Part shown: piece after piece, positions 2,638 to 5,600 of the stretch
How the letters are laid out: the number at the start of each line of letters is the position of its first letter
Position numbering within the stretch: position 1 is the stretch's first letter
Assembly (NCBI GenBank): GCA_019359695.1
Contig: JAHHGV010000008.1
Coordinates: forward strand, 124,001-188,000
From: Brasilonema angustatum HA4187-MV1
Lineage (GTDB): Bacteria > Cyanobacteriota > Cyanobacteriia > Cyanobacteriales > Nostocaceae
Direction: 5' to 3'
Length of the DNA: 64,000 bases
The notes under the pieces: generated by a model
The model's database searches: none
Told to the model about the DNA's origin: nothing
Seen by the model: only the letters and a program-made list of their open reading frames with translations
Made by a program: the position numbers and the translations under genes

Positions 2638-2685
2638 CACCAAGTTTCAGTTCTTAATGAAACGATCAAGAACTGAAACTTGGTG
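2638..2685 (+). promoter_or_regulatory. Perfect 18-bp hairpin upstream of the 57-aa peptide gene
   Basis: CACCAAGTTTCAGTTCTT (2638-2655) and its exact reverse complement (2668-2685) are separated by a 12-base loop. The hairpin ends 31 bases before the peptide start codon. No T-run follows, so it is not a classical terminator. It could be a 5' UTR structure, an operator or a small MITE. The rest of 2299-2637 is AT-rich with one short direct duplication (CCAGTTAAGCT near 2518) and no gene that I can see. Confidence 0.6.
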
Positions 2686-2716: not shown

Positions 2717-2890
2717 ATGTTAAATCAATTTGAAAAAAATGCTCAAAAGCATTTCCGTTCCAGCAAAATTCAAGTTGAAATCAAAGAATTGGCTCAGCCA
2801 CTCAGTAAAAATACTACTGCTCAGTTAAATACTGATGCTGATGGCAGTGACTTAAATACTGATGCTGATGGAAGTGATTTGAGCAGCTAA
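2717..2890 (+). CDS. 57-aa peptide with tandem LNTDADGSD repeat, candidate RiPP precursor
   Basis: A small frame starts at ATG 2717 behind a strong GGAGAGGAAAC ribosome site. The first ~36 residues are charged and leader-like (MLNQFEKNAQKHF..., then KIQVEIKELAQPL). The C-terminus is two exact copies of LNTDADGSD followed by LSS. The next gene is a JmjC/Cupin_4 hydroxylase in the same direction, a protein and peptide oxygenase family. Leader plus repeated Asp/Asn-rich core plus adjacent hydroxylase fits a ribosomally made, post-translationally modified peptide, but this is inference. The DADGSD motif also resembles calcium-binding loops, which is the main alternative. I know of no named family. 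Confidence 0.65.
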   Translation: MLNQFEKNAQKHFRSSKIQVEIKELAQPLSKNTTAQLNTDADGSDLNTDADGSDLSS

Positions 2891-2937
2891 TAGTTGCTAA
2901 TTATCCCATTACATTTAAACGCTAAGGAGTAGGTGCT

Positions 2938-4167
2938 ATGATACCTCCTACTCCAATTTATAATTGGTTTTCATTATTTTTTTGTAAATTTATTGAGAAA
3001 GATTATAAATTAATCATGTTTAGAGATATACTAAAGCCATATACAGTTGAAGAGTTTTTCAAAAAGAATTGGACAAGCGAAGCAGTGTTTATCTCTAGTG
3101 GAGACCAAACGAAATTTGCTAACTTGTTTTCTTGGGAAAAACTCACATATCTTTTGAACTTTCATCAGTTCAAATACCCTGATCTCCGTTTAGCATTAGA
3201 TGAAAAAGTCTTGGATGAAAGTGCAAATGCTAATATCATCCAGCGATGCCAAGAAGGTGCAACTCTAATCCTCAACGGAGTACATAAGCTAATTCCAGAA
3301 CTGGCTACTTTCGCCTCGCAAATCAAATATGATTTGGGGTGTGGCGTACAAGTAAATGCCTATTGTTCCTGGCCCAAAAGACAGGGTTTTTCTTCTCACT
3401 ATGACACCCATGAAGTCTTTATTTTACAAATAGATGGTACAAAGCAATGGTATGTATTTCGTGACACTATAAAGTATCCTTTAGCGGAACAGAAATCATC
3501 TTCTTTCTCGCCTCCAGAAGAAGAAGCTTATTTAATTTGCACTCTCAAACCGGGAGATGTTCTTTATATTCCTCGCGGTCATTGGCACTATGCAGTTGCT
3601 GTTGATCAACCATCACTGCATTTGACTTTAGGGGTGCATTGCAAAACAGGTATTGATTTTCTGGAATGGTTAGTGAACGAACTGCGTCAGCAGGAAGAGT
3701 GGCGCAAAAGTCTGGCATTACGTGTAGAGACAGCGGCTGCACAGAGGTATGTAGATAGCTTAATTGAAAAATTAAGTAAACATATTGCTCATAGCAATCT
3801 TTCTGATGATTATATCAGTTATATCGAGAGCTTCGACAAAGCGATCGCTCGCTACTCTTTACCTTATCAAGCTGGATTTAATATCTTTGAACAAGGGACA
3901 CAAACTAAGTTCAAAAGCGCCAAGTTTCAGCGATTTAGAATTACCGAACTGCCAGATGGCAGTGGCTACAAAATTGTTGTAGCTGGAAAAGAAGTATCTC
4001 TAAAAGGGGTACCTCTCTCTCTTGTGGATAATTTATTCACTGGAGAAATATTTACAGGGAATGATGTGCTCAATTGGTTACCAGATTATGATTGGGAAAT
4101 TGATATTGTTCCTCTTTTATCTCGCCTGGTAACTGAAGGCATCATTTTTGTTGCTCCCTCTACGTAA
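2938..4167 (+). CDS. JmjC/Cupin_4-type 2-oxoglutarate-dependent oxygenase
   Basis: 409 aa. The iron-binding HxD appears in SSHYDTHEVFILQIDG and the distal His in the GHWHYAVAV...LHLTLGVH region, the layout of YcfD/RoxA and MINA/NO66 protein hydroxylases. The following GTKQWYVF and KPGDVLYIPRGHWHY are typical of the fold. The C-terminal ~150 residues form a winged-helix-like region, as in Cupin_4 proteins. The start at 2938 has AAGGAG eight bases upstream; an internal ATG near 3018 lacks a ribosome site. The gene lies 47 bp after the 57-aa peptide and 40 bp before the next gene, so the three probably share a transcript. The substrate may be the adjacent peptide or a ribosomal protein. Confidence 0.85.
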   Translation: MIPPTPIYNWFSLFFCKFIEKDYKLIMFRDILKPYTVEEFFKKNWTSEAVFISSGDQTKFANLFSWEKLTYLLNFHQFKYPDLRLALDEKVLDESANANIIQRCQEGATLILNGVHKLIPELATFASQIKYDLGCGVQVNAYCSWPKRQGFSSHYDTHEVFILQIDGTKQWYVFRDTIKYPLAEQKSSSFSPPEEEAYLICTLKPGDVLYIPRGHWHYAVAVDQPSLHLTLGVHCKTGIDFLEWLVNELRQQEEWRKSLALRVETAAAQRYVDSLIEKLSKHIAHSNLSDDYISYIESFDKAIARYSLPYQAGFNIFEQGTQTKFKSAKFQRFRITELPDGSGYKIVVAGKEVSLKGVPLSLVDNLFTGEIFTGNDVLNWLPDYDWEIDIVPLLSRLVTEGIIFVAPST

Positions 4168-4207
4168 TATCCTCATTAATCTTAAAACAACACTTACTAC
4201 GACATAA

Positions 4208-5185
4208 ATGAATACTTTGTTTTGTTCTGATAATTCACGCCGAATAGGAGAAGATATTATTGGCAGCGGCACCAATAACCAAACTTACATATTGGTTGAG
4301 TGCCCGACTCCCTGGACATCAGAAGCCTTCAATTCTAAATGGGTTCCAGAGAATTTGAAGCTTTTAATTGAAAAGTGTAAGTCGGCTAAAATTCCGGTAA
4401 GATTCCTTTTGATTGCTAATAACTTATCACATAAAGTAGACAGTACAACTGTATTAATTTATCAGAAAGAAGAAGGACTTAGTAACGGATACCACAAACA
4501 AGAGTTTCATCTAGCACATATTGAGCAAGCAGCAGGAGTTGTGAGAAAATGGTTATCTGGTCACTCTAGTAATTATGAAGTGAAAAGCAGTGCAACCAGA
4601 GATATTTTAGTGTGTACCCACGGTAGTCATGATCTTTGCTGTGCTAGGTATGGTAATCCCTTTTATTGCCAAGCTGTAGCGATGTGTGATAACTTGTGCT
4701 TGGACAATGTTCGGATTTGGAAATCAAGTCACTTTGGTGGACATCGATTTGCACCAACAATAATAGACTTGCCAGAAGGAAGATTCTATGGTGCCCTCGA
4801 TCAAGATTCATTTCGCTCGATTTTAACGCGAACTGGTGATATCAACTGCTTGAATAAAGTTTATCGAGGTTGGGGAATTCTGCCAACTTCTATTCAGGTT
4901 TTGGAAAGAGAACTCATTCTCCAGCATGGATGGGATTGGTTTGATTACAAAGTTGCTGGCAGAATCATTGAGCAAAGTTCAGATAACACTACAATTCTAG
5001 CTGAACTAACTGTTGAAAAACCTGATTGTTCTCTTGACACTTACCAAGCTAAGCTTGTGAAAAATGAGAGTGAGAGTGTTGTGCTGCGGGGTTCTTGCAA
5101 TGCCAAGAAAGAGTCATTGTTCGTTAAATATTCTGTAGCTAATCTCTCGGTTTTCTCTGAGACTGTTGCAGCTTGTATTGCATAA
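4208..5185 (+). CDS. Sucrase/ferredoxin-like (thioredoxin-like [2Fe-2S]) family protein
   Basis: 325 aa. The signature CTHGSHDLCCARYG and the later SHFGGHRFAPT are hallmarks of the sucrase/ferredoxin-like family, where Cys and His residues can hold an iron-sulfur cluster in a thioredoxin-like fold. No signal peptide or membrane segment is visible, so a cytoplasmic redox role is likely. It follows the JmjC gene by 40 bp. If the preceding oxygenase modifies the peptide, this protein might supply electrons, although 2-oxoglutarate oxygenases do not normally need a reductase. The last 47 bases overlap the convergent GNAT gene. Confidence 0.8.
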   Translation: MNTLFCSDNSRRIGEDIIGSGTNNQTYILVECPTPWTSEAFNSKWVPENLKLLIEKCKSAKIPVRFLLIANNLSHKVDSTTVLIYQKEEGLSNGYHKQEFHLAHIEQAAGVVRKWLSGHSSNYEVKSSATRDILVCTHGSHDLCCARYGNPFYCQAVAMCDNLCLDNVRIWKSSHFGGHRFAPTIIDLPEGRFYGALDQDSFRSILTRTGDINCLNKVYRGWGILPTSIQVLERELILQHGWDWFDYKVAGRIIEQSSDNTTILAELTVEKPDCSLDTYQAKLVKNESESVVLRGSCNAKKESLFVKYSVANLSVFSETVAACIA

Positions 5186-5600
5186 AAATATGACTCATGT
5201 CCAGATAATCAAATGGCTCCCCTGCTTCGTAGAAGCATAGTCGCTTGTAAAAGTTGATAGCATCAATTCGTGACATTAATCTCAAAGTCTTGAGATTTTT
5301 GTCATGAGCTATTTCTATCAATTTTTCCATGAGTTTTGTACCAATGCCTTGACGGCGAAACTCAGGTAACACAGCGAGATAAGCAATACTTCCCAATTCT
5401 TTTGACAGTAAGCGCAGTCTCGCTGAACCAATGACTTTGTGATCACAAACAGCAACTAGATGAAAAGCGCTATCTTCATGCTTGTCTTTTTCTGTTCCTT
5501 TGTCCATTCCTAAAGGTGCTCTCAAAACAAGCCACCTTTGGTGGAACATATCATCTAGTTCTTGTTTATCTTTGACGGGACGTATCTCGATGTTTTGCAT
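5139..5600 (-). CDS. GNAT family N-acetyltransferase
   Basis: 153 aa, the usual length for a single GNAT domain. Motif A is clear (AVLPEFRRQGIGTKLMEKLI), giving the acetyl-CoA pyrophosphate loop, and the NFYKRLCFYEAGEPF segment is the usual C-terminal motif. Acetyl transfer from acetyl-CoA to an amine is expected; the substrate cannot be read from the sequence. It overlaps the 3' end of the sucrase/ferredoxin-like gene tail to tail and lies 14 bp downstream of the helicase gene on the same strand, so it may be co-transcribed with that gene. Confidence 0.85.
   Translation of the reverse strand: MQNIEIRPVKDKQELDDMFHQRWLVLRAPLGMDKGTEKDKHEDSAFHLVAVCDHKVIGSARLRLLSKELGSIAYLAVLPEFRRQGIGTKLMEKLIEIAHDKNLKTLRLMSRIDAINFYKRLCFYEAGEPFDYLDMSHIFMQYKLQQSQRKPRD

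Follow-up and report, generated by a model that had tools for sequence, protein, structure and literature searches.

Is the 57-amino-acid peptide encoded next to a JmjC-type oxygenase in Brasilonema angustatum HA4187-MV1 the substrate of that oxygenase, and if so, what would the product be? The two genes lie in a stretch of 64,000 nucleotides of contig JAHHGV010000008.1 (hereafter the window, to which coordinates refer unless a locus is named), part of an 8.5-Mb cyanobacterial genome; the closest relative of the oxygenase occurs in Brasilonema sp. CT11. The peptide gene (2717..2890, plus strand) is followed on the same strand by the oxygenase gene and by the gene of a Suc_Fer-like protein (SUC), and a GNAT acetyltransferase gene is convergent. 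A first-pass annotation of this DNA had called the arrangement a candidate unit for a ribosomally synthesized and post-translationally modified peptide (RiPP), citing a short frame with a strong ribosome site, two exact LNTDADGSD copies and the neighbouring oxygenase and sucrase/ferredoxin-like genes. The frame is present, with GGAGAGGAAAC preceding its ATG, and the neighbours match PF08007 JmjC (E 8.7e-26) and PF06999 Suc_Fer-like (E 1.9e-30). The two tandem repeats, the putative core (2825..2878, plus strand), are exact as protein; their 27-nt DNA copies are only 93% identical. The explanation that we consider probable is a RiPP-type system in which the JmjC enzyme hydroxylates Asp/Asn residues to give a metal-binding peptide, perhaps an iron carrier.

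An oxygenase scan of contigs from 84,980 species led to 28 loci, all cyanobacterial by title. At 25 of these a short upstream frame carries a SKIQVEVKEL-like leader motif and an acidic tail, and thus relatives do keep the peptide beside the oxygenase. The homologous short frames that the annotation had proposed to look for were found at these 25 loci and at two more in another family. The remaining three of the 28 are L022 and L036, which have just 90 and 320 bases upstream before the contig ends, and L038, which bears a Nif11-type precursor. SUC lies downstream in 26 loci (the contig of L024 stops before it and L038 shows none), and GNAT is found beyond SUC in 21 of the 28 fetched loci and in the window; farther neighbours vary by lineage. 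The gap between peptide and oxygenase genes widens to ca. 0.6-1.2 kb in Okeania, Hydrocoleum and Trichodesmium. Within the same genus the peptide is present in six of seven genomes, the window's included. A profile made from 17 precursors of the window's kind (type A) matched 8 of 388 genomes of the class, two of which (G000 and G363) are rows of the profile itself, and all eight matches adjoin an oxygenase match; one of them, in G088, is a type B-like peptide (see below) with a different tail. L038/G033 and L035/G363 were taken as the same records in both collections. A leader pattern, devised after precursors had already been seen, had the 57-amino-acid open reading frame (ORF) as its sole match among frames of 40-200 amino acids in the window, with a background of 7 non-precursor matches on both strands of 45 related loci (575,248 bases). 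The two further loci, L192 and L193, were found later in the family of L109; in each, a short frame recognised by eye combines GRIQI[ED][VI] with a tail rich in Asp. At L010 and L011, where the oxygenase matches are 36% identical, the leader motif was not seen. A chance association of the oxygenase with a small repeat-bearing ORF, for which nothing speaks, is ruled out for practical purposes by the 25 of 28 loci, the eight adjoining profile matches and the low background, and on this sequence evidence a genuine pairing of peptide and oxygenase is very likely.

In the window peptide the leader motif reads SKIQVEIKEL (residues 16-25; 2762..2791, plus strand), a conserved segment that is a putative strand for a recognition domain. 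The alignment of 17 type A precursors shows full conservation of I18 in the leader motif and of G43 in the tail, and near-invariance of S16, Q19 and E21 in the former and of D40 and D42 in the latter. The tails contain one to three copies or variants of the repeat, for example NVDADGSDVTNE, NSDADGGDLTNE, NFDSDGGDRNFDSDGGDRHFDSDGGDRHQ and FDGDDGSD. Searches of Pfam and NCBIfam at E values up to 1 gave no family for the window peptide, and so no named RiPP precursor family was matched. The features expected of a RiPP locus are present, namely a short precursor, a conserved leader, a differing core and an adjoining modifying enzyme; the core varies mostly between types A and B, with D40, D42 and G43 retained within type A tails.

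The second type of precursor became apparent from the oxygenases of the class. An oxygenase match at 1e-30 exists in 33 of the 388 genomes, and 28 genes reach at least 39% identity; besides the window's own gene and that of G035, for which shorter loci were used, these are 26 genes fetched together with their surroundings. The precursors of the 28 genes are of type A in nine cases, type B in 15, Nif11-like in one (G033) and likely type B by eye in one (G106); beside the oxygenases of G112 and G174 no precursor was seen. Type B frames are longer, with a start that resembles a signal peptide by eye and a related motif (SAIQVEVVDLEG and similar, weak in L134), and they end in Asn/Ser/Asp-rich repeats such as NSNSNSN, NDSSNSSS, NNDDSRR, NYDYSRNYDYSR and NDFGGSDFG. 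A type B profile matched 16 genomes, but it is a weak test because 11 of these are its own 11 rows; of the other five, G237, G245 and G318 adjoin an oxygenase match, G357 lies at the end of its contig and the match in G398 is marginal. A paralogue control gave no leader-pattern match at L073-L077 (five of ten paralogues) and is limited in power, since the type B frames of L145 and L149 likewise escaped the pattern. At ten loci (L110, L112, L113, L114, L115, L117, L118, L122, L124 and L126) the type B oxygenase is followed downstream by a conserved gene on the minus strand, ca. 275 codons long and with the motif GSxPRGxxIxxxSDLD; it appears nucleotidyltransferase-like by eye, and four copies scanned gave no Pfam match.

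The Nif11 relative belongs to Cylindrospermum sp. FACHB-282 (L038), where an oxygenase of 50% identity follows YcaO, sulfotransferase and ThcOx-type genes and the Nif11-leader precursor scores 54.7 bits against a cutoff of 32.3. A 226-amino-acid frame 3' of this oxygenase (L038:7284-7964) is without Pfam or NCBIfam match. In an oxygenase tree, made by a quick method with Shimodaira-Hasegawa-like approximate likelihood ratio support only and some partial rows, a branch with support of 85 sets the 31 type A rows apart; the Nif11 relative is placed with them (96), and the 15 type B rows share a group (85) with two rows that lack a clear precursor. The proposed unit of peptide and modifying enzyme thus gains from the conserved leader motif, from the differing A and B tails and from the relative inside a YcaO/Nif11 cluster.

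The oxygenase scores 90.4 bits against the curated PF08007 profile (cutoff 22). The HxD...H ligands that the annotation had considered intact correspond to H128, D130 and H191, which are invariant in 17 aligned sequences and whose ligand role is read from an alignment with NO66; the numbering is that of a protein of 383 amino acids. A longer frame starts at ATG 2938, which is part of the loop in an RNA hairpin of 8 pairs predicted between the peptide and oxygenase genes (2926..2954, plus strand). The start at 3016 (gene 3016..4167, plus strand) is the better one because it agrees with the frame lengths of relatives, 19 of 26 of which, counting those with no contig-cut frame, measure 382-386 amino acids from their first start. 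Consequently the 47-bp gap given earlier between the two genes, which presumes the 409-amino-acid frame from 2938, becomes 125 nt.

The full AlphaFold2 (AF2) model of the oxygenase (predicted local distance difference test, pLDDT, 76.9) has a fold that resembles NO66, MINA53, YcfD and YxbC. Its C-terminal winged-helix domain (3868..4164, plus strand; pLDDT 85.9 in the AF2 model) was compared separately by Foldseek, and among the best 14 ranks, none at E 0.001, are ten RiPP enzymes or RiPP recognition elements (RREs), two YcfD-like proteins and two unrelated ones. The ten comprise microcin B17 synthetase (three times), TigE, PqqD, a heterocyclase, ThcOx (twice), the PbtF RRE and a sactipeptide enzyme; the matches to the microcin, TigE, heterocyclase, ThcOx and sactipeptide proteins presumably fall on their RREs. 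The predicted structure is consistent with, but no proof of, a leader-binding role of this domain. Tandem, mostly decayed copies of the oxygenase 3' end, covering the winged-helix part, occur in Okeania and Hydrocoleum (L028:8119-8400 and L030:5137-5409, and between JmjC and SUC in L024-L027 and L033), and two of them are open stand-alone frames. Same-family genomes (L079-L082) have short segments 5' of SUC that match the C-terminal half of the oxygenase, with no motif frame in ca. 1.5 kb; judged by sequence they look like the leftovers of a lost cassette of which SUC was retained.

The surroundings of the peptide gene allow another view of it. Directly 5' of the gene lies a near-perfect inverted repeat with 21-nt arms and a 6-nt loop (2638..2685, plus strand), and the RNA fold of 2630-2716 around it has a z score of -6.4. 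On the other side of the ORF, where the hairpin at 2926..2954 is predicted, the fold of 2890-3015 has a z score of -3.0; the three other loci folded gave -3.1 (L013), -5.1 (L017) and -0.4 (L028, not well folded). Such hairpins on either side, together with an enzyme fold nearest to ribosomal oxygenases, would suit a peptide that is a small operon regulator or a self-standing metal-binding peptide, the oxygenase then acting on a cellular protein, e.g. a ribosomal one. We regard this as improbable: the two precursor types have an amino-acid motif in common which tracks the oxygenase and, as far as the pattern can tell, is not found with SUC alone, and a relative of the oxygenase resides in a YcaO/ThcOx/Nif11 cluster. 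SUC was itself considered as the partner of the peptide and rejected, as 34 SUC loci without intact oxygenase gave only scattered pattern matches unlike precursors, in a test that relied on the pattern that had failed to find the genuine precursors at L192 and L193.

If the peptide is the substrate, which residues would be modified? Asp and/or Asn are present in every tail counted (28 type A and 14 type B). Among 28 distinct type A tails, Asp and Gly occur in 28, Ser in 27, Asn in 25, His in 14 and Arg in 12; the window tail has neither Arg nor His. Arg or His as the target common to the tails was ruled out, since they are found in only 12 and 14 of the 28 type A tails. The PF08007 members of known function target Arg and His, as judged from PDB titles, and in biphenomycin-type RiPP pathways the JmjC enzyme BipG hydroxylates ornithine (PMC12707348), while PbsQ gives +16 Da only if arginase is present (PMC12257519). 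The oxygenase might act on Ser, Gly or Asn only, or on Arg or His of the leader in the manner of ribosomal oxygenases. Column R14 of the leader is Arg in 15 of the 17 aligned precursors, Ser and Gly are nearly or fully constant in type A tails, and Asn is found in all 14 type B tails counted, including that of L116, which has no Asp. R14 is, however, not invariant (L019 and L024 differ), H12 is not kept, and the tails are shaped around Asp and Asn, and we consider a different target residue unlikely. Asp beta-hydroxylation in RiPP precursors is described for PesHI (PMC13060819), which is a multinuclear non-heme iron-dependent oxidative enzyme (MNIO), unlike the JmjC protein here, and for SmaO (as cited in PMC13097080); the likeness to our system would be in the reaction. 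Hydroxylation of Asp/Asn in the peptide tail by the JmjC enzyme is likely.

The favoured RiPP-type explanation can be formulated as a sequence of steps. The 57-amino-acid peptide would be the substrate of the adjoining oxygenase, whose RRE-like C-terminal domain would bind SKIQVEIKEL in beta-strand form, and this docking of the leader would place the tail, rich in Asp, at the active site of the JmjC enzyme. There, side chains of tail Asp (or Asn) residues would be hydroxylated in a reaction that uses Fe(II), 2-oxoglutarate and O2. Hydroxylated Asp/Asn and the many carboxylates could make the tail a ligand of hard metals, Fe(III) or Ca(II), in a product that may be exported. GNAT might acylate the peptide, and SUC, a putative [2Fe-2S] protein that elsewhere often lies near siderophore-uptake genes, might release iron by reduction.

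That the product binds metal is plausible, and beta-hydroxy-aspartate is a ligand of Fe(III) in nonribosomal siderophores. The SUC protein (4208..5185, plus strand) has the CX8C...HX3H motif of bis-histidinyl [2Fe-2S] thioredoxin-like ferredoxins, and all four residues are retained in 32 of 32 aligned proteins. A TonB-receptor or Peripla_BP_2 homologue was found at 16 of 34 SUC loci without intact oxygenase, including that of this genome's second SUC (L183); these loci of 6-13 kb each were hand-picked from SUC matches, and four of the homologues were checked in Pfam. At L109 one strand encodes an AraC regulator, a 104-amino-acid frame, the precursor, JmjC, a TonB receptor with an AMIN domain, Peripla_BP_2, a major facilitator superfamily (MFS) protein and SUC. 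The oxygenase occurs in four of nine genomes of that family, and all three long loci (L109, L193 and L194) contain TonB receptor, Peripla_BP_2, MFS and SUC genes, the first three being types that serve siderophores. L193 contains TonB receptor, Peripla_BP_2, precursor, JmjC, SUC, GNAT and MFS, and L192 contains precursor, JmjC and SUC before the sequence ends after 3.3 kb; a TonB receptor is also present at L130. Iron is favoured over other metals because of this gene company in one family. In a SUC tree (L109 entered twice) the SUC of L109 is on a branch apart from the other cassette SUCs, which suggests that JmjC and SUC were joined more than once. That the product is an iron carrier is a minority prospect, though a substantial one.

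The same modification could serve a calcium-binding (EF-hand-like) or structural peptide, with SUC used for redox recycling of the oxygenase; this reading partly overlaps with the explanation that we favour, so that the likelihoods given here are not to be added up to certainty. The loop [DN]xDxDGxxxxx[DE], which is NTDADGSDLNTD in the window repeats, occurs in 20 of the 28 distinct type A tails, against a mean of 0.18 and a maximum of 2 in shuffles, a test that overstates the case because the tails share descent. The repeat tails and signal-peptide-like starts (by eye) of type B and the fact that 30 of 32 type A loci are without iron genes would also fit a calcium or structural role. The strict loop is missing from 8 of the 28 tails and the family of L109 has iron-type neighbours, and we hold this role to be rather unlikely.

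A number of observations weigh against the RiPP-type explanation or its iron variant. The modification of the peptide itself is a step that we infer. One genome of the same genus (G006, 99% complete) is without a peptide match, and the leader pattern missed the precursors of L192 and L193. Ten pairwise comparisons among five close relatives gave nonsynonymous rates of 0.3-0.6 of the synonymous rates in nine cases and no amino-acid change in the other, and judged from these sequences the constraint is moderate only. The best Foldseek match of the C-terminal domain has an E of 0.016, Pfam PqqD found no match in 18 members of the oxygenase group, and the RRE likeness may be general to PF08007, because YcfD-like ribosomal oxygenases rank among the RREs. 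Within the family with iron-type neighbours, the L109 tail lacks the DxDG pattern, and at L194 the same gene kinds surround an oxygenase without its N-terminal part, with no precursor seen and a frame resembling a polyketide synthase (by eye) nearby. No homologue of a TonB receptor or binding protein was seen in the fetched DNA of 30 of the 32 type A loci or of any of the 15 type B loci, nor in the 64 kb of the window. A scan of 18 upstream regions for Fur boxes, using the E. coli consensus, gave no overall enrichment; L012 and L013 reached 3 of 100 shuffles.

Comparison with known systems places the locus as a probable variant of RiPP biosynthesis that appears undescribed in the open-licence literature; no description of the peptide-oxygenase pair was recognised in open-licence papers, a scope that falls short of proving novelty. 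Methanobactin and other RiPP metallophores are ribosomal metal-carrying peptides, as the product here may be, with copper and Cys-derived ligands, whereas here an Asp-rich tail is combined with a JmjC enzyme. The BipG and PbsQ systems have a JmjC/cupin-like oxygenase that acts on a ribosomal precursor, as proposed here; their clusters contain MNIO and radical SAM enzymes, whereas at the present locus no modifying enzyme other than JmjC is obvious and the tail is rich in Asp/Asn. YcfD, NO66 and MINA53 belong to the same Pfam family (PF08007) and have the same overall fold, but according to PDB titles they hydroxylate Arg or His of ribosomal proteins, residues that are missing from many tails here. 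The motif of SUC is also that of Aim32 and Apd1 (PMC8482512), which are yeast redox proteins, whereas SUC here adjoins a peptide and an oxygenase.

A bolder proposal, which we put forward tentatively, is that the system represents a RiPP class of its own, defined by a single JmjC hydroxylase with an RRE, a beta-strand leader motif common to two kinds of precursor and poly-hydroxy-Asp/Asn products, in which type A peptides would be ribosomal siderophores and SUC a ferric-siderophore reductase of cyanobacteria including Trichodesmium and Okeania. If the explanation is true, a unit of two genes would make a hydroxylated ligand for metals out of a genetically encoded acidic repeat, with the number and spacing of ligands readable from the DNA. 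RiPPs would gain a class whose sole modifying enzyme is of the JmjC type, RREs would be linked with the winged helix found in ribosomal oxygenases, and cyanobacteria such as Trichodesmium would have a testable ribosomal metallophore. It would also suggest a possible role for the sucrase/ferredoxin-like proteins, which occur in 113 of the 388 cyanobacterial genomes.

Among the remaining genes, the GNAT acetyltransferase, a frequent cassette neighbour assigned by family match, lies convergently at 5139..5600 on the minus strand. A defence system was considered and dismissed, as PADLOC gave no match for the four proteins, and no peptidase was found in the six neighbour clusters scanned. A 275-amino-acid protein encoded at 1295-2122 of the window (minus strand), without Pfam family above cutoff, has two halves that look similar by eye. 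Finally, TRAP-transporter genes lie 5' of the cassette in the Okeania-Trichodesmium lineage (L024-L034 and L039), with DctQ at 8 and DctM at 12 loci.

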